49,009 nucleotides of DNA. Source: Candidatus Woesearchaeota archaeon. Its GTDB lineage: Archaea; Nanobdellota; Nanobdellia; SCGC-AAA011-G17; JACQNH01. Positions 4,004 through 33,301 of the stretch are shown here, piece after piece; position 1 is the stretch's first letter, and each line of letters opens with the position of its first letter. Location of the stretch: NCBI GenBank assembly GCA_023246445.1, contig JAHFIJ010000005.1, forward strand, positions 1 through 49,009, in the 5' to 3' direction. Below the pieces are notes generated by a model, which was given only the letters and a program-made list of their open reading frames with translations, did not search any database and was not told where the DNA came from. The position numbers were made by a program, and so were the translations under genes.

Positions 4004-5725
4004 TTAAAATGCTCTAGGTTGTGGCTTTCTGAAGAACAATATCTTAATCAAGATTATAGCAATTACTACCAGGATTATATCTACTATAACCCATATTGCT
4101 GTGCTGTTCCTGCTAAAAAAGTCACTTGCATTGCCAGTTGTTGCTTCACTAGCCTCCACATTAACATTTACTGCCTGGCTGTTTAATACTAAATCTCCAG
4201 CTTTAACCTCTACAACAGCTGAATTCTGCCCGACAATTGCACCACTCTTGGCAGCTAAATTAAATACAACACTTGAGCTTGCACCAGGATCTAATGTTAC
4301 TGTCTTGCTTGCAACACTTGTAGCCCAATCAGCATCAACATCAACTGTAAATGTTGCCTTCTCGCTTCCGCTATTAACAACATTAACGCCTAAGTTTGCA
4401 TTTCCGCCATACTTAACATTTAAGCTGCTTGTTGCCAAACTTAACGTTGCTGATGGTTTATTTCCAGTTACTATTGGAGTTGCACCTTTCTTCTCACATG
4501 TAGAAGTCAATACAACAACAGTATTATCAGTTAATTTGCTTTGATCATAGTAGGTTCTTATTTCAATTGGATAGGTTCCAACCTCTAAATTTGCTCCAAT
4601 TGGAATATTGAACACACTGCTGTCCCCATCATCCTGATCTAATTGTATATCCGTCAATTTTTGATTGAAATTAAACTTAGGTGCATCAACTTCAATTGCT
4701 ACCTCATCCTCATCAGACTTGCCAATATTTACATAACTTACAACTAATCTGGCATTAACTGACTCACAACCAACCTTTTCAGGGCTCAGAGTTAGGGATT
4801 TAATTGCTATTTCATGGCTTTCTCTTTCTACCTTAAATCTTATTATTGCCTTCTCACCATGTTTAGCACCAAGTTCATCCTTTCCACTTAAAGTAATTTG
4901 AACATTAAATGTCCCATCATTAGTGTCTTCATCAAGATCAAACTCAAAGGCATTATTCTCCTTATCATCAGAGCTTATATCTCCTAAATCTTCATCTTCA
5001 TCTATGTCTAGATCATTATCCAAACTCTTAATTTTAAATTCAACATCTTCCATATCTACATTAGAACTGGCACTGTATTCATTTTCAACCTCAAACTCAA
5101 CTCTTACATTTTCGCCAGGCTTAACATTCTCAACTTCATCATTATCTTCATCTGCTGTCTGTGTTTTTCCACTTATTCTCCATTTAACAGATTTAATTGT
5201 TAATTGATTCTTTCTCTGCATATTCAGATCAACTTCAGTAGCTGTTATTACCTTAGTGCTACCAGAGCTCTCAGTTGCATTCAGCTTAAAACTTCCAACC
5301 TTAAATGCACTTGCTATCAAGTTAGAATTAATAGCATCTAAGCTCTTAGGCCCCTTAGCCCTTATTGTTAAAACTGCAGTTGTATTAGAATTTGCAGCTA
5401 CACTTACAGAAGTTGATGCACTTTCAATTCCAACAGTGTTTAATGCTATATCAGAACCAAAAGCTGAAACAGCTGTAACACTTTCTATACCAAAATTTGA
5501 AAAAGTAACTGCTGTTGCTTGATCATTTACTAACTTTAATGTTACTGTTCCTGTTAAATTAACTGTTCTTGAACCTTCGCTATCATGATTTGGATTACTA
5601 ACAACCCCACTTGCATCACCCATAGTCATGCTTGTTCCAACAAACTCTATGCTTGGAGTAGCACTGACACTGGTTGCTAACAAAACTAAAACAAACAAAC
5701 TCAATATTATCAATTTATTATTCAT
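4004..5725 (-). CDS. Putative S-layer/surface protein with C-terminal TM helix
   Basis: 573 aa; signal peptide, beta-sandwich-like Ig/CARDB/NEW3-style repeats, C-terminal IWVIVDIILVVIAIILIKILFF + RKPQPR. Confidence 0.65.
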   Translation of the reverse strand: MNNKLIILSLFVLVLLATSVSATPSIEFVGTSMTMGDASGVVSNPNHDSEGSRTVNLTGTVTLKLVNDQATAVTFSNFGIESVTAVSAFGSDIALNTVGIESASTSVSVAANSNTTAVLTIRAKGPKSLDAINSNLIASAFKVGSFKLNATESSGSTKVITATEVDLNMQRKNQLTIKSVKWRISGKTQTADEDNDEVENVKPGENVRVEFEVENEYSASSNVDMEDVEFKIKSLDNDLDIDEDEDLGDISSDDKENNAFEFDLDEDTNDGTFNVQITLSGKDELGAKHGEKAIIRFKVERESHEIAIKSLTLSPEKVGCESVNARLVVSYVNIGKSDEDEVAIEVDAPKFNFNQKLTDIQLDQDDGDSSVFNIPIGANLEVGTYPIEIRTYYDQSKLTDNTVVVLTSTCEKKGATPIVTGNKPSATLSLATSSLNVKYGGNANLGVNVVNSGSEKATFTVDVDADWATSVASKTVTLDPGASSSVVFNLAAKSGAIVGQNSAVVEVKAGDLVLNSQAVNVNVEASEATTGNASDFFSRNSTAIWVIVDIILVVIAIILIKILFFRKPQPRAF

Positions 5726-5779: not shown

Positions 5780-7345
5780 TTAAACCTTTCTGTTAATTAA
5801 CTCTAATAATAGTAATAATATTAAAACAAGAATTATCACAATGCCAACAATCAAATTATAGTTAATTTCTGTTTTTTCAATCTTATCTATATTAACATTA
5901 AACAAGACACTATCTAAGCTTCCTTCATTTAATTCTATAAATCCATTAAATCTGCCATTAACCTCATCTCTAACCTTAATATAGAAATAAACTGTCTTGC
6001 TTTCTCCTGCTTTCAATTGTATTAAATTATCTCCAGAAATCAAATCCCCAAAACTTTCTATTCCATTAAGATCAAGCCTTATAGCTTTACTATTCCCTTC
6101 ATTCTTTAAATTCAAAACTAAACTAAAACTGCTTCCAGGATTAACATTAATATTATTTTCAACTAAATTGCTTTTAATACCTTTAACAACTTCAGATTCT
6201 ATTTTTTTAATTTCCTTATCACAAATTACTCCAAAATTCTTGCTTGTTTTTTTGCTTGAGCCATCAAACACAACCTCTCCATCTAATATGTAACTGCCAG
6301 GCTTAGCATCTTTTGGTATTTTAACATCAAAGCTTACAACTGCCTCATTTTTAGGATCTTTCTCTTCCTTATCAGCATCTCTTAATCTTATTTGATTTGA
6401 TACTTCACTTATGCTTAGAATATTATTATAAATCTTAACGCTTGCATCTTGATCCTTTTTCCCTATATTCTCAACATCTATCTTAACACCTATTACTTGC
6501 CCACACTCAACTATATCCGGGGTTATGCTCATCTTATCAATAATAACATCGCTTGATCTCCTATCTAAATCTATTTTAACAAAATCCTGTTGGCAGTTTA
6601 AAGTCTCTCTATCTGGATCCTCAAAAGCCTTGACAAATAATATATATTCATCCTCTTCATCAATTTCAGTTGTAGGAATCTTAACAGTAAACTCAAACTC
6701 CTCTCTTGTTCCATCTCTTATCTCTTTTACTTCACTTCTTGCTCTTGCAATATCATCATTCTCATCCACATTAAATAATATTGCCTCAACCTGCGTGTCT
6801 AAATCCTTATTTCCTGTATTTTTCACTTTTGCTTTTACCTTAATCTCTTCTCCAGGATTAAAATCATCATTGCTGTCCGGATCTTCTATACTTAACGCTA
6901 AACTCCCCTTAACTCCGCTGTCGCATTTATCCAACCTTGTTGCATTTAATTTCCTGTCATCTATTTTTAGGATATATGCTTGCGTTAAGGAATCAGTTGA
7001 AACTGCACTATTAGTAAAAACAAAGCTTCCTTTATAATCTCCTAAATCTATTTTTTCAGGGATATTAATCTTAAATGTAAATTCCTTTTGTTCATTCGGA
7101 TTAAGATTTATATCACTAAAGCTTCCGGGGCTTATAATACCGTTATTATTGCTTAAGTCTGTTCCACTTACTTTTAAAGTTAAAGCGTTATTATTTGGAT
7201 TATTTATATTTGCAGTAATCTTGGCTTCTTCACTTCTAAAAGCAGTATCAGCATTAAAATTAGTTATTGTAAAACTAGCAGCACTGGCTGATAAACTAAA
7301 TAAAATACTTAAAAAGAATATTAAAGCTGTAAATCTTATTTTCAT
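5780..7345 (-). CDS. Putative S-layer/surface protein, tandem relative of the neighbouring gene
   Basis: 521 aa; signal peptide, CARDB/NEW3-like repeats, C-terminal TM + NRKV. Confidence 0.65.
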   Translation of the reverse strand: MKIRFTALIFFLSILFSLSASAASFTITNFNADTAFRSEEAKITANINNPNNNALTLKVSGTDLSNNNGIISPGSFSDINLNPNEQKEFTFKINIPEKIDLGDYKGSFVFTNSAVSTDSLTQAYILKIDDRKLNATRLDKCDSGVKGSLALSIEDPDSNDDFNPGEEIKVKAKVKNTGNKDLDTQVEAILFNVDENDDIARARSEVKEIRDGTREEFEFTVKIPTTEIDEEDEYILFVKAFEDPDRETLNCQQDFVKIDLDRRSSDVIIDKMSITPDIVECGQVIGVKIDVENIGKKDQDASVKIYNNILSISEVSNQIRLRDADKEEKDPKNEAVVSFDVKIPKDAKPGSYILDGEVVFDGSSKKTSKNFGVICDKEIKKIESEVVKGIKSNLVENNINVNPGSSFSLVLNLKNEGNSKAIRLDLNGIESFGDLISGDNLIQLKAGESKTVYFYIKVRDEVNGRFNGFIELNEGSLDSVLFNVNIDKIEKTEINYNLIVGIVIILVLILLLLLELINRKV

Positions 7346-10459: not shown

Positions 10460-11755
10460 ATGAAATCATGGAGTAGAAAAAAACATGTATTGGCTTTAGC
10501 ATATCCTAACACAGAATACTGCGGAGTTTATTCTCTAGGCTTAAGAATAATATCAAACATAGTTAATTCAAATGAAAAATGGTTTTCTACATTGCATTAT
10601 ACAGACAAAAACAACTTAAAAGCAGAAAATTTCATTGGTTTCTCTTTCCAATACGAGCCAGATTACTTAAATTTTTTTAATATGCTAAAACAAAATAATA
10701 TCCCCCTGGAAAAAGGACCTCGTCAGCAAATAATCTTCGCAGGAGGCCCTTGCATTAATCAAAATCCATTCACATTGCAAAAATACTTGGACTTTATGGT
10801 ATTAGGAGATTCAGAAATTGTAATGCCAAAAATTTTAGAAGCTTATGAAAATACAGAAACTAAAGAAGAATTTTTAAATGAAATTTCAAAAATAATTGGA
10901 GTTTTCATTCCGGATATAAACAAACCAACTTATGCTGTTCTAAACAATTTGGATGATTCTCCTTATCCAATAAAACAGGAATATCCTAAAAATTTAGATA
11001 AAAGTTTTGTTTTCGGAAAAGCCTTGCTATTGGAAACAGAAAGAGGCTGTCCCTACAAATGTAAATTCTGTGTTATCCCTACAACATACCCAAAAATAAG
11101 ATACAGGTCTTACGAAAATATAATAAGAATAATTGACGAAGGAATAAAAATGAATAAAGCAGATAAAGTTGCCATCTACGCAGCTTCTTTCACGCATCCC
11201 AAAAGAGCAGAATTCTTAAACTACATGCTAAAAAAAGGGATTAAATTTATTGTCCCCTCTACAAAAGTTGAATTCTTAAACGAGGAAATAATGAAATTAA
11301 TAAAAGAAAATGGCCAGACTTCTTTAACGATAGCCCCCGAAGCAGACGAAATAACAAGAAGAACAGTTAATAAATTCACAACAGACAATAGATTTTTTGA
11401 ATTTGCAGAACTAGCCAGGAAATTAAACTTTAAAAAAATAAAAATGTATTTGCTATATGGAATTCCAAACCAGGAATTAAAAGACTTGGAAAAAACCATA
11501 GATTTCATAAAAAAAATGAAAGATATTTTCCCCAATATATATCCTTCCATAAATCCTGTGGTCCCAAAGCCTAAAACACAGTTTGATGGTCTGCCATTTA
11601 ATAAGAAAATTTTAAAGCAGCAGGCTAAATTTTTAAAACATGAATTAAATAAATTAAATATAGATTATAAATTAGAATCTATACACACAGCTTACAATGA
11701 ATATCTACTAGCCAATTCAAAAGATTTAACTCCGGATTTTTTTAGAAATAATTAA
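10460..11755 (+). CDS. B12-binding-like radical SAM protein
   Basis: ERGCPYKCKFCVIPTTYP (CxxxCxxC) preceded by a cobalamin-binding-like N-terminal domain. Confidence 0.8.
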   Translation: MKSWSRKKHVLALAYPNTEYCGVYSLGLRIISNIVNSNEKWFSTLHYTDKNNLKAENFIGFSFQYEPDYLNFFNMLKQNNIPLEKGPRQQIIFAGGPCINQNPFTLQKYLDFMVLGDSEIVMPKILEAYENTETKEEFLNEISKIIGVFIPDINKPTYAVLNNLDDSPYPIKQEYPKNLDKSFVFGKALLLETERGCPYKCKFCVIPTTYPKIRYRSYENIIRIIDEGIKMNKADKVAIYAASFTHPKRAEFLNYMLKKGIKFIVPSTKVEFLNEEIMKLIKENGQTSLTIAPEADEITRRTVNKFTTDNRFFEFAELARKLNFKKIKMYLLYGIPNQELKDLEKTIDFIKKMKDIFPNIYPSINPVVPKPKTQFDGLPFNKKILKQQAKFLKHELNKLNIDYKLESIHTAYNEYLLANSKDLTPDFFRNN

Positions 11756-12296
11756 ATTTCTTCAAACTCAAATAACCAATTAAATATCCGATTAATCCGC
11801 CAAATAAAACATCGCTTAAATAATGGAATCCTGTATAAATCCTTGCAAATCCTATTAGTATAGAAATTGCAATCCATAAATATCCCAGCTTCTTATTAAA
11901 ATAAAAAACAAAAGGCAATAACGAAAAAGCAGCAGCAGTATGCCAGCTTGGAAAACTAGTATTAAAAGAAGCAAAAGAATAATCAAATATATTTAATTTA
12001 GAATTTAAAATAACTTCAAAGGGTCTTGGTCTATTAATGAAATATTTTAAAATAGTTACTACAAAACCTGTTAAGAAAAATCCAATAACTGCATTTATAA
12101 TCTTCTTCTTATCCTTAAAATACAATATAATAACGCTAAAAATTAATAAAATATACTCTTTTAAAATCAATAATGTATAATAAACAAATGAGCTAAGAAA
12201 TCCAGATCTTATACTAAACATGAAACTGCTAAAACTCTTATCTACAAACAGGCTTATTATCCCAAACATTATTAATAAAATCAGGTAAATCATCAA
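11742..12296 (-). CDS. PAP2-superfamily membrane phosphatase
   Basis: KYFINRPRP, SFPSWHTAAAFS, RIYTGFHYLSDVLFG: the three PAP2 motifs. Confidence 0.85.
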   Translation of the reverse strand: MMIYLILLIMFGIISLFVDKSFSSFMFSIRSGFLSSFVYYTLLILKEYILLIFSVIILYFKDKKKIINAVIGFFLTGFVVTILKYFINRPRPFEVILNSKLNIFDYSFASFNTSFPSWHTAAAFSLLPFVFYFNKKLGYLWIAISILIGFARIYTGFHYLSDVLFGGLIGYLIGYLSLKKFNYF

Positions 12297-12354: not shown

Positions 12355-13395
12355 ATGATAAGCAACATTTTAACAACTTTAAGATTAATCCTGTCACCTA
12401 TTATATTATACCTGTTAATAAAATCCCAGTTTAAATTAGCCTTAATTTTAACAATAATTGCAGCTATAACTGACCTTTTAGATGGTTATTTGGCAAGAAA
12501 ATTAAAAAAAACAACAGCCTTAGGAAAATTTTTAGACCCTTTAGCAGATAAAGTCCTGACAGTTTTTGTATTACTTGCCTTGCTCTTAATAAATAAAATT
12601 ACTTTATTGGAATTATTAATATTAAGTTTTAGGGAAATAGTAATTGCACTTTTTACTTTAATAGCCTTAATAGATAAAAACAAAAGAATGAAAGAGTGGA
12701 CAAGGAACAATCTTGGAAAATTCGCAACAGTAGCGCAATATACATTCATTTTGATTATCTTGTTAAACATAAGCATTCTAAGAAATATTTTTCTTTTAAT
12801 CACCGCAGTATTATCCATTGCTTCAACTATAAGCTACTTAAGAATATACAAGCATCATTTAAAAACCTTAAAATCAACAACAATAGAATTATTAAAATTT
12901 ATTTTAGTTTTATTATTGGGAATTTTTTATGAAATCTTTTACATAATTTTTACGCCTTTAACAATTTATCCAACGTTTATAATTTCAAATATTTTCTTCG
13001 ACGCAGCTTTAATAGAAAACGCTTTGATTATAGATTCAACAATATTCAAATTTATTCCCGCCTGTATCGCAGCCTCAGCATATCTATTATTAGCAATCTT
13101 AATACTAACAACTAAAGGAATTAATTTCGGGAAATGTTTAAAGCTGTTTATCATAGGCTCATTATTAATATTATCCGCAAATATATTAAGATTGGAATTC
13201 TTGATTTTTTTATATAGAAATTTCTCAATAGAATTGTTTAACACCATTCATTTATTTATATGGAAAGTCTTATCTTCCATCTATGTTGTCTTAGTATGGC
13301 TATTCATAACAAAATATTTTAAAATAAAAGAAATACCAATATATTCCACTTTAAAAGAGTTTTATAATTTATCACTATTCAAAAAAAGGCGTTAA
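12355..13395 (+). CDS. CDP-alcohol phosphatidyltransferase fused to archaeosortase-like domain
   Basis: N-terminal DGYLARKLKKTTALGKFLDPLAD (DGx2ARx8Gx3Dx3D); C-terminal PACIAASAYLLL, NILRLEFL, HLFIWK giving Cys-Arg-His order of exosortase/archaeosortase. Confidence 0.75.
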   Translation: MISNILTTLRLILSPIILYLLIKSQFKLALILTIIAAITDLLDGYLARKLKKTTALGKFLDPLADKVLTVFVLLALLLINKITLLELLILSFREIVIALFTLIALIDKNKRMKEWTRNNLGKFATVAQYTFILIILLNISILRNIFLLITAVLSIASTISYLRIYKHHLKTLKSTTIELLKFILVLLLGIFYEIFYIIFTPLTIYPTFIISNIFFDAALIENALIIDSTIFKFIPACIAASAYLLLAILILTTKGINFGKCLKLFIIGSLLILSANILRLEFLIFLYRNFSIELFNTIHLFIWKVLSSIYVVLVWLFITKYFKIKEIPIYSTLKEFYNLSLFKKRR

Positions 13396-14095: not shown

Positions 14096-14686
14096 CTAAT
14101 GCACTAGGGATTTTTTCTTTTTATACTTCCTGTAAAACCACCATATTATTAACAATAAAACCACTACAACCAAAGTCCATAAATCAAATCTATCCAAATA
14201 ATCCATAAATCTCTGACCAAAATACATTACAAATCCAGCTACTATAAAAAATCTTAAGCCTCTGCTTATAAAACTCATTAAAACAAAATTCCAGAATTTA
14301 ATATAAAAAACGCCTCCTGCAATTGTAAACACTTTATAGGGTATTGGTGTAAATCCTGCAATAAAAATAGCCCAGCTTTCATATCTGTTGAATAAGTCAT
14401 GCACTTTCCTAATCTTCTCTTCTGAAACAAATCTTTTCAAAACTGCCTCTTTTCCCGTATAACCGATTAAATAGCCAAACATCCCCCCTGTAACGCTTCC
14501 AATAGCGCAGACTAATGCAAAAAACCACCACTTGCTTGGTTCAGCAAAAACTAAAACAGCCAATAATAAATCAGGCGGAATAGGAAAAAAAGAGCTTTCA
14601 ATAAATGCCAGTATAAATAACCCAATCCATCCTAATGGGCTAAAAACTCTTTCTGTCCATGTAACTAAATTACTTAACATCATCAA
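14096..14686 (-). CDS. DedA/VTT-family membrane protein
   Basis: FIESSFFPIPPDLLLAVLVF, GSVTGGMFGYLIGY, GFTPIPYKVFTIAGG. Confidence 0.85.
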   Translation of the reverse strand: MMMLSNLVTWTERVFSPLGWIGLFILAFIESSFFPIPPDLLLAVLVFAEPSKWWFFALVCAIGSVTGGMFGYLIGYTGKEAVLKRFVSEEKIRKVHDLFNRYESWAIFIAGFTPIPYKVFTIAGGVFYIKFWNFVLMSFISRGLRFFIVAGFVMYFGQRFMDYLDRFDLWTLVVVVLLLIIWWFYRKYKKKKSLVH

Positions 14687-27108: not shown

Positions 27109-27912
27109 ATGCAGAAGGAAATGAGTAAACTAACAATTGATATAAACGGAATTTGTAATGAAAGATGCGGATTCTGTTATCAAAACTTAGACGGTTCTAT
27201 ATTGCCTGAGGAAGAGATAATGAGATTAATTGATAGTTCTGACTCTGATGTTGTTGAGATTGGTGGAGGCGAACCATTCTTAGATAAAAGAATTGTTAGA
27301 ATCATAAGAGAAATAAGAGCAAAAGATAAAGGAGTTCATGTTTCAACAAACGCTACTGTAATCCCTAAAGAACTTTTAGATTTAGAGCAAATGGCAAAAG
27401 AAGGAACACAAATACAGGCAAGTTTACATGCTTCGAATCCTGCTCTGTATGAACATATTACTGGTAAAAATCTTTTTGATGAAGCAGTTAGAAACATAAG
27501 AAATCTAAAACCTCATTTTCCTATGTTAATGACTTCTGCTGTTTATCAAGATAATGTTAATGATGTTCCAAGACTATTAGACTTAGCCGAAGAGCTAGGA
27601 TTGCCATTAAGAGTTAATCTCGTTTTTCCAGTAGGTAATGGGAGAAATGTAAATCGTTTAAATTCTCAACAAGTTAATCAATTAAGAGGCTACTTGCTTC
27701 AGCAAAGAGTTATTAAAGGAGACAAAATAGATTCTCCATTAATACACTCTAATAATTGTTATGCTTTATCTGATGGTTATGGATTAGACAAAGAAGGAAT
27801 TTGTCCTTTTGATTGTGGAAAAGTTTATGTTTCCCCAAACGGAAAAAAATCTGGTTGTGAATTTTATAAACCATCTAAATTAGTGCGATTAAATACAGGA
27901 GAAAGAAAATGA
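27109..27912 (+). CDS. Radical SAM protein with C-terminal Cys-rich (SPASM/twitch-like) region
   Basis: DINGICNERCGFCYQN (CxxxCxxC), EIGGGEPFLD; C-terminal C...CPFDC...GC. Confidence 0.85.
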   Translation: MQKEMSKLTIDINGICNERCGFCYQNLDGSILPEEEIMRLIDSSDSDVVEIGGGEPFLDKRIVRIIREIRAKDKGVHVSTNATVIPKELLDLEQMAKEGTQIQASLHASNPALYEHITGKNLFDEAVRNIRNLKPHFPMLMTSAVYQDNVNDVPRLLDLAEELGLPLRVNLVFPVGNGRNVNRLNSQQVNQLRGYLLQQRVIKGDKIDSPLIHSNNCYALSDGYGLDKEGICPFDCGKVYVSPNGKKSGCEFYKPSKLVRLNTGERK

Positions 27913-29504
27913 ACGGAGAAGGAACAAGATTCAAAATAAGAGATAACATGGCACAGAACAGGCAAATTAAATCAATTCAGCCAGAGGTTACAGAAGAAAA
28001 ATATTATATTCATCCAAAATTAAAAGAAGATTTGGAAGGTATAGCAGCAACTGTTCAACATTTAGATAGATTTGGAACTGAAATGGGACATAGAAACTAT
28101 CTTTTTGTTGGCCCTCCTGGAACAGGTAAAACTTTGGGTGTCCAGTATCTAGCTACAAAATTACATTGTCATTTGTATGATGCTAAAGGAGTTTCAAATC
28201 CTCAACAGATAAGTTGGTTATATCAACAATTGAGAGAGATTGCAAAAAATGGAGATCAAAAAGTAATCTTAATGTTAGATGAAGTTGATAAGTTTTCAAG
28301 TAGAGAAGAAATAGTCGACCCAACTCAACAGCAAACACTTAATCAATTGTTAGCAGAAATGGACGGAGTAGATTCTAATAATGGAATTTTTGTATTTGGA
28401 ATGACTAATAAAGCAGACAAATTAGACAATGCACTAAGAAGACCTGGAAGATTTTCTAAAGAAATAGAATTTATGCCACCAGACAGAGAAGGAAGACTTG
28501 CAATATTAAGAATTCATGCGAACAGAAAAGGGGGACACATGTTCCGAGTAGGGGATGAAGACTTGCAATATGCTGCAGGTTTAACATTCGGTTATACTGG
28601 GGCTGACCTAAGAGGATTACTAGATGAAGCATTTACTTTAAATGTTTTACGTGGGGATGATAAACTTGTTGTAGATAGAAATGATATCGATAAAGCCTTG
28701 AAGAAAACAAAACCTTCTGCTTTAAGAGATATGCCATTTAGAGAGCCACAAAAGAAGCTTGATAGTATTGGTGGATATGAAAGTCATAAAGATGTTATGA
28801 GAAGAGTATTTGATAGAAGTAATGGGAGCATGGTTTTATTTTATGGCCCTGCTGGAACTGGTAAAACTGAATTTGCTGAAGCTCTTGCTGGTGAATATGG
28901 TTTTAATTATATTATTATATCTGGTTCAGAACCAGAAGATAAGTTTGTTGGAGAAACAGGAAAGAAAATAGAAAAATATCTTACAAGAGCAAGACAACTA
29001 TCACCATGCGTTTTACTTTTTGACGAAGTGGATGCTCTTGTTGAAAAGAAATATGCACAATCTTGGAAATCAAGCTGGACAGGACTATTGCAGAGCAAAT
29101 TGAGTAAACCAATAGAAGGAGTTTATATAATTGGGACTATGAATAGACCAGATTTAATTAATGACACTTTTGTTCAAAGATTTCCACATAGATTATACTT
29201 CGGAATGCCAAATCCAACTGAACAAGAAGCTATATGGGGAAAATATTTGCCTGATGGAATTGAAGCTAAAGCACTAGTTGAAGCTAATGGAAAATTAACA
29301 GGAAGAAATATTGCTCATGCCTCTCTTGTTGTAAGAGATTATGGTTTAGAACCATTTGTTGATATATACAAAAATCTTATAGCAAATATCCGACCTGCTG
29401 ATGGAGTAGATTATGAAGAAATAAGAAACATGGTTGGAGATTCAATAAGAGATTATGATAATGTAAAAAAGTTTTTAGCTGAACAAGCAGGAGATAAAAA
29501 ATGA
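27909..29504 (+). CDS. Tandem AAA+ ATPase (CDC48/VPS4/FtsH-like modules)
   Basis: Two Walker A (GPPGTGKT, GPAGTGKT) and two Walker B (VILMLDEVDKF, VLLFDEVDAL); RRPGRF in D1. Confidence 0.9.
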   Translation: MNGEGTRFKIRDNMAQNRQIKSIQPEVTEEKYYIHPKLKEDLEGIAATVQHLDRFGTEMGHRNYLFVGPPGTGKTLGVQYLATKLHCHLYDAKGVSNPQQISWLYQQLREIAKNGDQKVILMLDEVDKFSSREEIVDPTQQQTLNQLLAEMDGVDSNNGIFVFGMTNKADKLDNALRRPGRFSKEIEFMPPDREGRLAILRIHANRKGGHMFRVGDEDLQYAAGLTFGYTGADLRGLLDEAFTLNVLRGDDKLVVDRNDIDKALKKTKPSALRDMPFREPQKKLDSIGGYESHKDVMRRVFDRSNGSMVLFYGPAGTGKTEFAEALAGEYGFNYIIISGSEPEDKFVGETGKKIEKYLTRARQLSPCVLLFDEVDALVEKKYAQSWKSSWTGLLQSKLSKPIEGVYIIGTMNRPDLINDTFVQRFPHRLYFGMPNPTEQEAIWGKYLPDGIEAKALVEANGKLTGRNIAHASLVVRDYGLEPFVDIYKNLIANIRPADGVDYEEIRNMVGDSIRDYDNVKKFLAEQAGDKK

Positions 29505-30388
29505 GTCTTGATGAACATTTTCAACAGCAAAGAAAAATAGTAGTAAGAAGATACCCTTCAGCAGAAGCTTTAGCACAAGTGGAAAGAGGAAACAAATTTA
29601 TTGTTGTGCAAGATGATTTTGACCCTAGTCATGTCCCCCAAGGATACACTTTAATCAACATGAAGCATAAAACTAATTCATTTAGGACTTTAGTCCCACA
29701 ATCACTTTTATTTTATATGGCAAATCCGGGAGAAGGCGAACCCGAAGGAGCTTTAGAAGAAATTGCAAATTTCTATGGAGAGACTAAAGATTTTGAAGAT
29801 GACTTAATTGAAAACGGAGATACTTCTGTTCAAGAAGCTAACTGGGCAAATCTTGCAAGAGGAAGTTATCAAACTTATCTTATTAACCGATTAGTAAAAA
29901 ATGGGAAAGGAGAAAGAGATGGAGAAGGCGAACCAGTTCCAGAATTTAATCCCGAAGTTTTATCTCAATTAGACTTAAGTGACCCTTATGTTTATCAAAG
30001 AGTTATAGCAATAGCAGCTTTAGCTTTAGAAAAAACTGCTGACCAGATTAAAGCTCATGAAGTAAAAGATGTTTTGAAGCATATAACCTTAAATTATAAA
30101 GAATGTGTAAGAACAGAGGTTAAATGCTGGGCAGGAAGTCACTATGAAATTAAACATGAATATAGAATTGAAGATAAGCAACAGACATATTCGGCATTAA
30201 ATACTCAAATAGGAGAATTAGAATCCCAGATTGATACATATCGTAAACAGAAACATGGCGAGGGTATAGGAAGACATGACCATGCTTTGATTAGACAATA
30301 TGTAAATTTAGCACATATAACTCCTGAAAATCCTCGTGCACAATTAGATATTTCACCACCAGAAAAAATAGTGGAGAAACAAAAATGA
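29501..30388 (+). CDS. Hypothetical protein (operon gene 3)
   Basis: 295 aa; ATGA overlap with upstream gene. Confidence 0.6.
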   Translation: MSLDEHFQQQRKIVVRRYPSAEALAQVERGNKFIVVQDDFDPSHVPQGYTLINMKHKTNSFRTLVPQSLLFYMANPGEGEPEGALEEIANFYGETKDFEDDLIENGDTSVQEANWANLARGSYQTYLINRLVKNGKGERDGEGEPVPEFNPEVLSQLDLSDPYVYQRVIAIAALALEKTADQIKAHEVKDVLKHITLNYKECVRTEVKCWAGSHYEIKHEYRIEDKQQTYSALNTQIGELESQIDTYRKQKHGEGIGRHDHALIRQYVNLAHITPENPRAQLDISPPEKIVEKQK

Positions 30389-32004
30389 ATCAACCACCAT
30401 CTACAATGACTATTGAACTAGAAGAAAAAGATGTAAGAAATGATTTGCCAGAAGTAGTTAATGCTATGTCGAAGATGAGAGCTGAAACTATTAAAGATAG
30501 AAAATTAACAGACAAACAAAAAGATGAATATTTACATATGTCTTATCGTTTAGCTTCCGGGATACAAGCTGTTGCAGATGAACCAATGACAAAAAGAATG
30601 CAGGTTGTTGCTGATAGATTAAACAAAAATCCAACTCTTTTAAAATATGACCCCATGCAAGACGGATATTGGAGAAAACAAGAAAGTAGATTTGCAGAGG
30701 CTTTAGATGACTTGCTTATTGCTACTGTTAGAGATGATTTTCATTCTGTTGATGCAAAACATCATGTTTTACAAGCAGTGAAATATCTTGGTGTTGGAGA
30801 TACTCCATCAAAAGAAAGAGAAAAAGTTTATGATACAATATTGCCATTTCATGGACCAGTGCCATTAGGGACTAGAGAAAATTTACTAAAGAAACTTTTT
30901 GGTAGATTACTTGGAGATCAATATAAACTTTCAAACCTAGAAGAACTTGCATTAAACATTGATGCTACAAGTAACGGGTTTACAGATGAATTTTTAGCAA
31001 TGGCAAGAGACAGAGGATATACTACTTTAATAGTTAAGATGACTGACAAAGATTTCGAAAAAGCAAAGGCAAAATTAAAAGATATGCAGGTTGTTGGTCC
31101 TAATAACGTTCAACCCAATCAAAGATTAGTAAACACTGCAAATAGTATTGTTAGATATACTAAACCCTTAACTTACCCCTTACTTGGTGCTTTACCACGA
31201 AGCTTACAAGATAGATTAGGTAGAACTCTGCCTACATTTAGTGCTGAATATGCATGTCTTGCTTCAAATTGGACAGAATTTGCAACCGCTGTTATGGGAA
31301 CTATCGGAATTTGTATAGCCCAAAAAAATTTTTTGCCTTTATTGGCGGCTATTCCGTTTGTAGCAGATGCAATAACTAGAGGACTCATTGGTTGGCCAGA
31401 TCAAAATCAATCATTCTCTCATCCCGTCGGTTCAGCATTCTTTAAGCCCATTTTCTATCCATTAGAAAAACATCTTAATGAGAAACCGAGAAAAACAGTT
31501 ACAGTTGAACTTCCAGTTAGGAAAATTGAAGCATCACAACAGGTGCCAAATCCAATTGCATTTTATGATGCTATAGGAAAAATGGAAGTTCCAGAAGAAG
31601 CAGAAGGAAATTTAGTTTGGAATAATGAAAATCATCATCAATTTGGAAAATCTTTTATGGCTTATGTTAAAGAACATGCTGGAGCTCAACCACAAGGAAT
31701 AGAAATAGCAACTGCAATAAATAAACCAAATCAAGCAGTAGTTTATAATCATGAACTCCCAGTTGATGGATATAGAAAATATTCTTCTTTGTTCTGTTTT
31801 AATGGAAGAAGGTATCTTGTAACAGCAGTTAAACCAAACAGAGGAACTAATAATTTTGTTGAAAATGCATCAACAATTCTTTCAAGTGATACTGACAATC
31901 AAAAAAAATTAGAAAGACTAGGAAAAGAATTGGATGCGAGATATGTTCACTTAAGAGAATATAGAAACTGGCAAGTAGCAAGTGATATGGAGGGCTTTGG
32001 TTAA
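30385..32004 (+). CDS. Hypothetical, possibly membrane-associated protein (operon gene 4)
   Basis: 539 aa; hydrophobic segment FATAVMGTIGICIAQKNFLPLLAAIPFVADAI; ATGA overlap. Confidence 0.55.
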   Translation: MNQPPSTMTIELEEKDVRNDLPEVVNAMSKMRAETIKDRKLTDKQKDEYLHMSYRLASGIQAVADEPMTKRMQVVADRLNKNPTLLKYDPMQDGYWRKQESRFAEALDDLLIATVRDDFHSVDAKHHVLQAVKYLGVGDTPSKEREKVYDTILPFHGPVPLGTRENLLKKLFGRLLGDQYKLSNLEELALNIDATSNGFTDEFLAMARDRGYTTLIVKMTDKDFEKAKAKLKDMQVVGPNNVQPNQRLVNTANSIVRYTKPLTYPLLGALPRSLQDRLGRTLPTFSAEYACLASNWTEFATAVMGTIGICIAQKNFLPLLAAIPFVADAITRGLIGWPDQNQSFSHPVGSAFFKPIFYPLEKHLNEKPRKTVTVELPVRKIEASQQVPNPIAFYDAIGKMEVPEEAEGNLVWNNENHHQFGKSFMAYVKEHAGAQPQGIEIATAINKPNQAVVYNHELPVDGYRKYSSLFCFNGRRYLVTAVKPNRGTNNFVENASTILSSDTDNQKKLERLGKELDARYVHLREYRNWQVASDMEGFG

Positions 32005-33301
32005 AATGGCGAAGATAAGTATTATTAATAGAAATAGTACAATGAGAAAAGTAAAAAGATTTATTAAATTAGGAATAGCTGCTGCTGTGATTTATGGTGC
32101 TGTTTGGACTGCTCCTAAAATAACCAATCAATATAATTTAAGTTCAAACAGAGCAGAAATAACAAAACGTGTTAATGCTCGAGATTATGGAGGAGCTTTA
32201 GAATTAGATAAAAAGCTTAGAAATATTGGATTTTTTATTCCATACACTGCTGAAAAGCAGAAAATTCTAGTTTCAGATTCTATAAGAACTAGAAAAACAA
32301 CAGAACTAGAAGAAGCAGTTAAAGGATATGATTATGATTCCGTATCAAAACTTTTAACTCAATTTAAAGGCGAGGAGTTTTTCTCTGCTGATGACATTAA
32401 AAAATTTGAAGAAAGAGTTCAAGAGATAAGTCCTAGAAGTTTAATGAAACAAGCTGAAAGTGCTGATGAGCCATCTAAACAAGTAGAGCTTTATGAGACA
32501 GCTCAAAGAGAATTTGGGAAATCTGGGGAGCAAGAACCAACTTTAAGAGGAAAATTAATTACAGCTTCTTTAAGAGATATTGGTGTATCTTATGATAAAA
32601 AAGAACTAACAGCATTAAATAAAATTGATAGATTAGCTAATTATCTTAAAGCACAAAAAGAAACTTCTACTCAAATTGGAAGTGAAGAAATAGATAGATT
32701 ATTTGATACTTCTAATATATTTATGAGGCAAGCTTTACTCGAAGGAACACCAAGATTAGACCAAGCAAAGGAATACTTAGCAAAAATTGATTCTCTTGCA
32801 GGACTACTAGGAATTAAAGATAAAGAGCAAAGAGTAAGAGCTCTTGCTCAACTTGCAATAAAACAAACTGAAACAGGAATAGGAAGTAAAATACAATATC
32901 AAGCAAGTGATGTTATAGATTTAGATAGAATTGCTGAATTAAGTCAGACTTATAGCCCCGAAAGTCTTGGAAATATAGTTGAACTTTATTTAGTTGCACA
33001 GGGAAAAGTTCAGAAAGACCCACTATTAACAAAGAACTTTTTGGATTCGGGATTAATACAAGCTGAATTGCTACCTGCTGAAAGACAAAGAGAAGTTAAA
33101 ACAAGAATAGCTGATAGTTATGTTGGACTAGCTAGAACAATTAGCGATACTGCAAGAAAAGATGCTTATCTAATGTTACAAACAGCAAGAGGATTATATT
33201 TTGATGCTGGATTAAAACAGGAAGATAAAAAAATAACTGAATTAGATTCTTTGGTTCATAGCAATTTTGGAAATAAAACCGAGAGTGAAGCAAAGAATTA
33301 A
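31982..33301 (+). CDS. Membrane-anchored helical repeat-like protein (operon gene 5)
   Basis: Single TM LGIAAAVIYGAVWTA then about 390 aa of helical sequence; true start may be ATG at 32041. Confidence 0.55.
   Translation: MIWRALVKMAKISIINRNSTMRKVKRFIKLGIAAAVIYGAVWTAPKITNQYNLSSNRAEITKRVNARDYGGALELDKKLRNIGFFIPYTAEKQKILVSDSIRTRKTTELEEAVKGYDYDSVSKLLTQFKGEEFFSADDIKKFEERVQEISPRSLMKQAESADEPSKQVELYETAQREFGKSGEQEPTLRGKLITASLRDIGVSYDKKELTALNKIDRLANYLKAQKETSTQIGSEEIDRLFDTSNIFMRQALLEGTPRLDQAKEYLAKIDSLAGLLGIKDKEQRVRALAQLAIKQTETGIGSKIQYQASDVIDLDRIAELSQTYSPESLGNIVELYLVAQGKVQKDPLLTKNFLDSGLIQAELLPAERQREVKTRIADSYVGLARTISDTARKDAYLMLQTARGLYFDAGLKQEDKKITELDSLVHSNFGNKTESEAKN

Follow-up and report, generated by a model that had tools for sequence, protein, structure and literature searches.

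A CDP-alcohol phosphatidyltransferase of probable PgsA type is joined to a pacearchaeosortase in a single ORF of one archaeal genus

The window (the whole stretch of DNA analysed, 49,009 nucleotides) encodes one polypeptide in which a complete CDP-alcohol phosphatidyltransferase (CAPT) is followed by a complete pacearchaeosortase, with both sets of catalytic residues intact as judged from sequence. Both halves are known families; the architecture that combines them is new and limited to one genus. Two explanations of the fusion, functional coupling and a tolerated accident, are nearly equal on present evidence. The explanation favored here, at a little short of an even chance, is that a PgsA-type CAPT and a pacearchaeosortase are co-located in one membrane protein so that the CAPT lipid serves as the surface-protein anchor.

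Domain architecture and catalytic residues

The fusion is found in the genome that holds the window (G000) and in G068, another assembly of this genus. Its ORF starts with ATG and runs without interruption through 346 codons. The features are as follows:

12355..13395, + strand: fusion ORF, 346 aa, CAPT (N-terminal) and pacearchaeosortase (C-terminal); same architecture in G068
12358..12819, + strand: CDP-alcohol phosphatidyltransferase domain, putative PgsA type, residues 2-155 (Pfam PF01066, TIGR00560, PDB 7drj)
12472..12549, + strand: CAPT catalytic motif D40..D43-G44..A47-R48-x8-G57-x3-D61-x3-D65, invariant in 20 aligned CAPT proteins
12889..13368, + strand: pacearchaeosortase domain, residues 179-338 (NF033505)
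13063..13065, + strand: presumed catalytic Cys237, invariant in 72/72 homologues
13189..13191, + strand: presumed catalytic Arg279, with invariant Asn276; invariant in 72/72 homologues
13249..13251, + strand: presumed catalytic His299, invariant in 72/72 homologues

The N-terminal half belongs to the CAPT family by a match to Pfam CDP-OH_P_transf (PF01066) across the whole domain (E=1.8e-31, 110 bits, cutoff 22) and by the stretch DLLDGYLAR-x8-G-x3-D-x3-D, within which the full D-x2-DG-x2-AR-x8-G-x3-D-x3-D motif is found. The C-terminal half has no Pfam match, and its assignment as a pacearchaeosortase rests on NCBIfam model NF033505 (E=3.5e-36, 124.8 bits, cutoff 80; 127 bits in the genome-level search of G000 and 122.0 bits for the G068 fusion). 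It also passes the general exosortase/archaeosortase signature TIGR04178 (30.5 bits, cutoff 23) and carries the ordered Cys/Arg/His of that superfamily as C237, R279, and H299. The earlier note had read the ORF as a single CAPT-archaeosortase frame with an N-terminal CAPT signature and an ordered C-terminal Cys/Arg/His triad. This reading is borne out, including by the profile searches of both halves that the note had proposed.

Conservation, selection, and the junction

In G068, the same fusion lies at L091:10055-11110 (351 aa). The two proteins share 66% identity in an alignment almost without gaps, and the same genes flank the fusion on both sides in both genomes. The fusion is therefore not an assembly accident, which the earlier note had named as a possible refutation. 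The G000 genome is fragmented (46 contigs), as might be expected if an assembly or sequencing artefact had joined two genes, but an independent genome with kept synteny on both sides and a synonymous divergence of about 1 makes an artefact practically inconceivable.

Both halves are held by purifying selection, as dN is well below dS in each (Nei-Gojobori, G000 versus G068). The N-terminal half shows a dN of 0.33 and a dS of 1.32 (dN/dS about 0.25), and the C-terminal half a dN of 0.13 and a dS of 0.93 (dN/dS about 0.14). The N-terminal half diverges faster (56% identity compared with 78%), which would fit the decay of one half to a mere membrane tether. With all motif residues of CAPT and sortase intact in both genomes and with these dN/dS ratios, such a decay is very hard to credit.

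The two halves meet where standalone sortases have their start Met (position 172, a Leu in the window protein), and no linker is added. A simple loss of a stop and a start thus explains the fusion. This speaks for an accident that has been tolerated, in which the genus' only PgsA-like gene came to lie ahead of the sortase and its stop codon disappeared, while the halves remain independent. That the fusion has stayed unsplit through divergence to 66% protein identity (dS about 1), however, argues against it. No ATG or GTG start is found near the junction, only TTG188, which makes a separate sortase product unlikely; an internal start yielding one was rejected on these grounds. Arg181, which is near-invariant in standalone sortases, is a Lys in both fusions.

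Type of the CAPT half

Sequence profiles and structure models assign the N-terminal half to the PgsA type, whose head group is glycerol phosphate; the missed TIGR00560 cutoff leaves this head group uncertain. With this pgsA model, the half scores 94.2-97.5 bits in G000 and 78-86 bits in G068, below the equivalog cutoff of 109.1. The models of PssA and archaetidylserine synthases give about 19-34 bits, and NF038086, which describes a sorting-linked archaetidylserine synthase, gives 27-34 bits against a cutoff of 200, which does not support a PssA assignment. The only sequence match of solved structure is PgsA from S. aureus (7drj, E=4.5e-9 for G000 and 9.6e-11 for G068). The top PDB matches in Foldseek are the same S. 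aureus PgsA structures, with phosphatidylserine synthase (PSS) far weaker; the closest solved relative and fold are thus PgsA and not PSS, PIPS, or DIPPS. The AlphaFold2 models have mean pLDDT values of 82 and 85, with most of the C-terminal half above 90 in one and most of the N-terminal half above 90 in the other.

Residues common among PgsA-like relatives (RE/RD and GK..T..Q) are kept, and RE and GK..T are also present in S. aureus PgsA. In a CAPT-domain tree of the class, the domains of the two fusions group together in a single clade (SH-aLRT 99). By path length, the rows closest to them belong to DPANN relatives in family f49, a sister grouping without strong support. The fused CAPT is the only PgsA-like CAPT of G000, and the two other CAPT genes of this genome look archaetidylinositol-phosphate-synthase-like.

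An analogy to the haloarchaeal PssA/PssD pair, proposed in the earlier note, was rejected on the profiles (94 bits with TIGR00560 versus 19-31 bits with the PssA and archaetidylserine-synthase models), on the PgsA structures and folds, and on the absence of PssD. The PssD profile (PS_Dcarbxylase) is missing from 101 of the 103 genomes of the order, both fusion genomes included. The completeness of G000 (91%) bears on absences in its own genome; the same picture is seen in G068 and across the rest of the order. It is improbable that the CAPT half makes another head group (serine, inositol phosphate, or another alcohol), which would render it a direct parallel to haloarchaeal PssA. Such a product is suggested by the TIGR00560 score under the cutoff, by a CAPT motif that is common to all subfamilies, and by the 34 bits of the G068 half with NF038086, whereas scores with PgsA models are two to three times higher, and the PDB and Foldseek matches, the retained residues, and the missing PssD all point away from it.

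Membrane topology

With loops assigned by hand from helix boundaries, the two sides of the membrane carry 0.27 and 0.10 K+R per residue (positive-inside rule). The CAPT motif is predicted to be cytosolic, and C237, R279, and H299 are predicted to be extracytoplasmic, near the outer helix ends. With the active sites on opposite membrane faces, the lipid product of the N-terminal half would have to be flipped before use by the sortase. The earlier idea of an anchor lipid made in situ is weakened by the predicted placement of the two sites.

Sortase substrates and neighboring genes

The pacearchaeosortase and its S-layer substrates (PACE-CTERM) are an already known pair. The genes considered around the fusion are as follows:

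4004..5725, - strand: PACE-CTERM putative S-layer protein, likely sortase substrate (NF033506, 135.7 bits, cutoff 110)
5780..7345, - strand: second PACE-CTERM putative S-layer protein, with CARDB domain (NF033506, 130.3 bits, cutoff 110)
11742..12296, - strand: PAP2 lipid phosphatase, divergent neighbor; candidate AGP or polyprenyl-PP phosphatase (PF01569, E=2.1e-24)
14096..14686, - strand: VTT/DedA-family protein, undecaprenyl-phosphate flippase-like; candidate lipid flippase (PF09335, E=4.8e-17; 30-32 bits with UptA models, under cutoff)

The two PACE-CTERM proteins are encoded about 5 kb upstream of the fusion, and four matches are found in G000, so that cognate substrates occur in the same genome. 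In a sister lineage, the gene immediately upstream of the sortase is S-layer-like. Among the 59 sortase loci longer than 8 kb, the PAP2 family is found near the sortase in 27, and at least one PAP2, VTT/DedA, Sm_multidrug_ex, or CTP-transferase-like gene flanks it in 44. In the family f7 (G039-G051), the sortase is missing from all 13 sampled genomes, and in several of these the ribosomal-block/VTT/PAP2/S-layer neighborhood persists. This synteny is therefore no evidence for a sortase-lipid link, and the PAP2, VTT, and CTP-transferase neighbors were dropped as proof of one. All 13 (e.g. L178, L181, L184) retain PACE-CTERM-like S-layer proteins, which have a membrane helix at the C-terminus, a natural sortase-loss or pre-sortase state. 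As substrates are present in sortase-less genomes, PACE-CTERM proteins are not strictly dependent on the sortase.

Distribution of the fusion

The pacearchaeosortase is present in 80 of the 103 genomes of the order and is fused in G000 and G068 only; the others are standalone, with about 165-220 aa in the sampled members. An exosortase search over 378 genomes of the class gave no further CAPT fusion among the matches listed, and a CAPT search of the same sample gave no other sortase fusion. Nor was a further fusion found among the matches listed when 371 genomes from across the phylum were searched at full length, or in a genome-contig scan that may not cover the records of the window's own genome. 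A separate CAPT gene was not found within about 6 kb of the standalone sortase at some 70 loci, scanned with a CAPT profile that was built from the two fusions and could miss very divergent CAPTs. The survey of fused versus adjacent genes that the earlier note had suggested thus returned the fusion, in two genomes of one genus, but no adjacent pair at these loci. In the order, CAPT and sortase functions are normally located in separate, non-adjacent genes. In the literature search, no paper mentioning pacearchaeosortase or PACE-CTERM was found, and the only paper found naming both archaeosortase and CDP-alcohol phosphatidyltransferase was a review.

Lipid pathway in the order

Only a minority of the order's genomes have PgsA-like genes (10 of 103 at E 1e-8), and in nine of these 10 they co-occur with CarS, the CDP-archaeol synthase (Fisher p=4e-8, uncorrected for phylogeny). 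A CarS-PgsA-PHP cluster is present in G046 and a PAP2-PgsA cluster in G030 and G037; the fusion genus retains the PHP-CarS pair without PgsA (CarS was labeled by search, PAP2 and PHP by eye). A PHP-domain phosphoesterase gene lies beside CarS at L144:3196-4520, L145:3220-4553, and L138:3030-4982 and is a candidate lipid-phosphate phosphatase. Most sortase-bearing genomes of the order have neither a PgsA-like gene nor CarS, so in general the sortase does not depend on this lipid enzyme.

GGGPS (PF01884), the enzyme of the first committed step in making archaeal lipids, is absent from every one of the 103 genomes. Sixteen of them keep CarS and hence late lipid steps without the first committed one. 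The absence of GGGPS suggests that lipid precursors are scavenged. A DPANN symbiont has been reported to take lipids from its host (PMC11035636).

Functional coupling or tolerated fusion

If the halves are coupled, the N-terminal half would most likely act as an archaetidylglycerophosphate synthase that uses CDP-archaeol from CarS, encoded elsewhere in the genome, and the C-terminal half would cleave the C-terminal anchor of PACE-CTERM S-layer proteins. The fusion would be one membrane protein in which both active sites function, held at one membrane spot. A glycerol-headgroup archaeal lipid would be made on the cytosolic side, perhaps dephosphorylated by the neighboring PAP2 enzyme, and then flipped, perhaps by the neighboring VTT/DedA protein, to act as acceptor for the cleaved surface protein. 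In this explanation, we infer the identity of the product, the topology, the flipping, and the use of the lipid as an anchor.

Coupling is favored by the domain identities, the PgsA-type fold and sequence, and the invariant catalytic residues. It also draws on the near gap-free alignment with G068, the purifying selection on both halves, and the lack of an ATG or GTG by the junction. Further support comes from the co-occurrence of PgsA-like genes with CarS and the CarS-PgsA-PHP and PAP2-PgsA clusters of relatives, from the PACE-CTERM proteins on the same contig and upstream of the sortase in a sister lineage, from the need for a CAPT (PssA) in haloarchaeal archaeosortase processing (PMC7157517), and from other CAPT fusions of the class, which join lipid-pathway partners. 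The many sortase-bearing genomes with neither a PgsA-like gene nor CarS, confinement to one genus, sites on opposite faces, the persistence of the PAP2/VTT/S-layer neighborhood in the sortase-less family f7, and the missed TIGR00560 cutoff count against it.

A tolerated accident is a serious contender. The N-terminal half would then be a general archaetidylglycerophosphate synthase, and the sortase would use another acceptor or only cleave. Besides the junction, this agrees with a fused gene that is the sole PgsA-like CAPT of its genome, with the sortase being present without PgsA in most relatives, and with the restriction to one genus. The choice of partner is suspicious, however, as a CAPT is functionally required for the haloarchaeal archaeosortase (PMC7157517).

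A bifunctional lipid-anchoring machine, in which this one protein both synthesizes an archaeal phospholipid with a glycerol head group and attaches it to S-layer proteins, in host-dependent archaea without the early lipid pathway, is rather unlikely. If it existed, the PACE-CTERM anchor lipid of the genus would be of the archaetidylglycerol type and not archaetidylethanolamine.

Comparison with known systems

The fusion resembles the pacearchaeosortase/PACE-CTERM system (NF033505, NF033506) in passing the curated cutoff, in keeping the catalytic residues, and in having two substrates in the window. It differs from the standalone sampled sortases by the preceding CAPT and by the Arg181 to Lys exchange. 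Archaeosortase cleavage in Haloferax depends on PssA and PssD, and loss of PssA abolishes covalent lipid attachment; in Methanosarcina, artA and pssA are adjacent (PMC7157517). These systems share with the fusion a genetic link between archaeosortase and CAPT and the S-layer substrates. In Haloferax, however, the genes are separate, and PssA is predicted to make archaetidylserine, followed by PssD (PMC7157517), whereas the fusion is of the PgsA type, lacks PssD, and forms one polypeptide. It is thus a second type of CAPT-archaeosortase link. S. aureus PgsA (PDB 7drj/7drk) has the CAPT motif, the six-helix fold, and the RE/RD and GK..T residues in common with the N-terminal half, which is archaeal, scores 94 bits against the cutoff of 109 bits of TIGR00560, and is followed by a sortase.

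The fusion bears on which lipid archaeosortases attach and why cleavage needs a head-group enzyme, for which the evidence so far is genetic and comes from Haloferax (PMC7157517). As a natural fusion, it unites both activities on a single chain and points to a lipid class that can be tested. It also suggests that enzymes other than PssA can be the partner, and that DPANN archaea that appear to scavenge precursors keep a late head-group step near surface-protein processing. It is plausible that the lipid product of the fusion would be the anchor. The genus consists of tiny, probably host-dependent archaea, in which the fusion hints that lipid and protein anchor may be made together.

Other fusions and further observations

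CAPTs are likewise joined to functionally related partners in Archaeoglobus IPCT-DIPPS (PDB 4mnd), in tandem CAPT-CAPT proteins, and in CAPT-lipid-kinase-like proteins. Their partner is a cytidylyltransferase, a CAPT, or a lipid-kinase-like domain, but never a sortase in the sampled genomes. The long CAPT frames examined have a second CAPT, a lipid-kinase-like domain, or another domain as partner and no sortase. Other long archaeosortase frames of the class are longer archaeosortases, one flippase-like fusion, and two exosortase-like proteins, none with a CAPT.

Tandem CAPT-CAPT proteins (342-363 aa) with both motifs intact occur in families f49 and f76 (L148:937-2007, L150:1471-2538, L151:1480-2571, L157:970-1998). 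In family f48, a CAPT is followed by a C-terminal domain resembling a diacylglycerol/lipid kinase (L169:481-1953, L193, L194, L195; about 490-510 aa), and in L192 a different C-terminal domain follows the CAPT. An ORF of 719 aa at L126:887-3046 (- strand, G249:C32) combines an archaeosortase-like N-terminal half with a C-terminal half judged by eye to be polysaccharide-flippase/MATE-like. Two exosortase (EpsH-like) proteins on one contig (L127 and L130, G126:C3) are unlike other archaeosortases, and the contig is possibly a contaminant. Two pacearchaeosortase genes stand in tandem at each of L057:3553-4694 and L068:4581-5692 (G102 and G101, respectively).

In both g15 genomes (genus g15; G017:C16:3300-3965, G018:C43:35459-36142), a single in-frame TGA lies within the match to ribosomal L1, which may reflect a frameshift, an end effect, or recoding. 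In the window, a compact run of genes at positions 27109-33301 (+ strand) looks like an operon: besides a radical-SAM protein and a double-AAA+ ATPase it encodes several large proteins that are uncharacterised, and the ends overlap.
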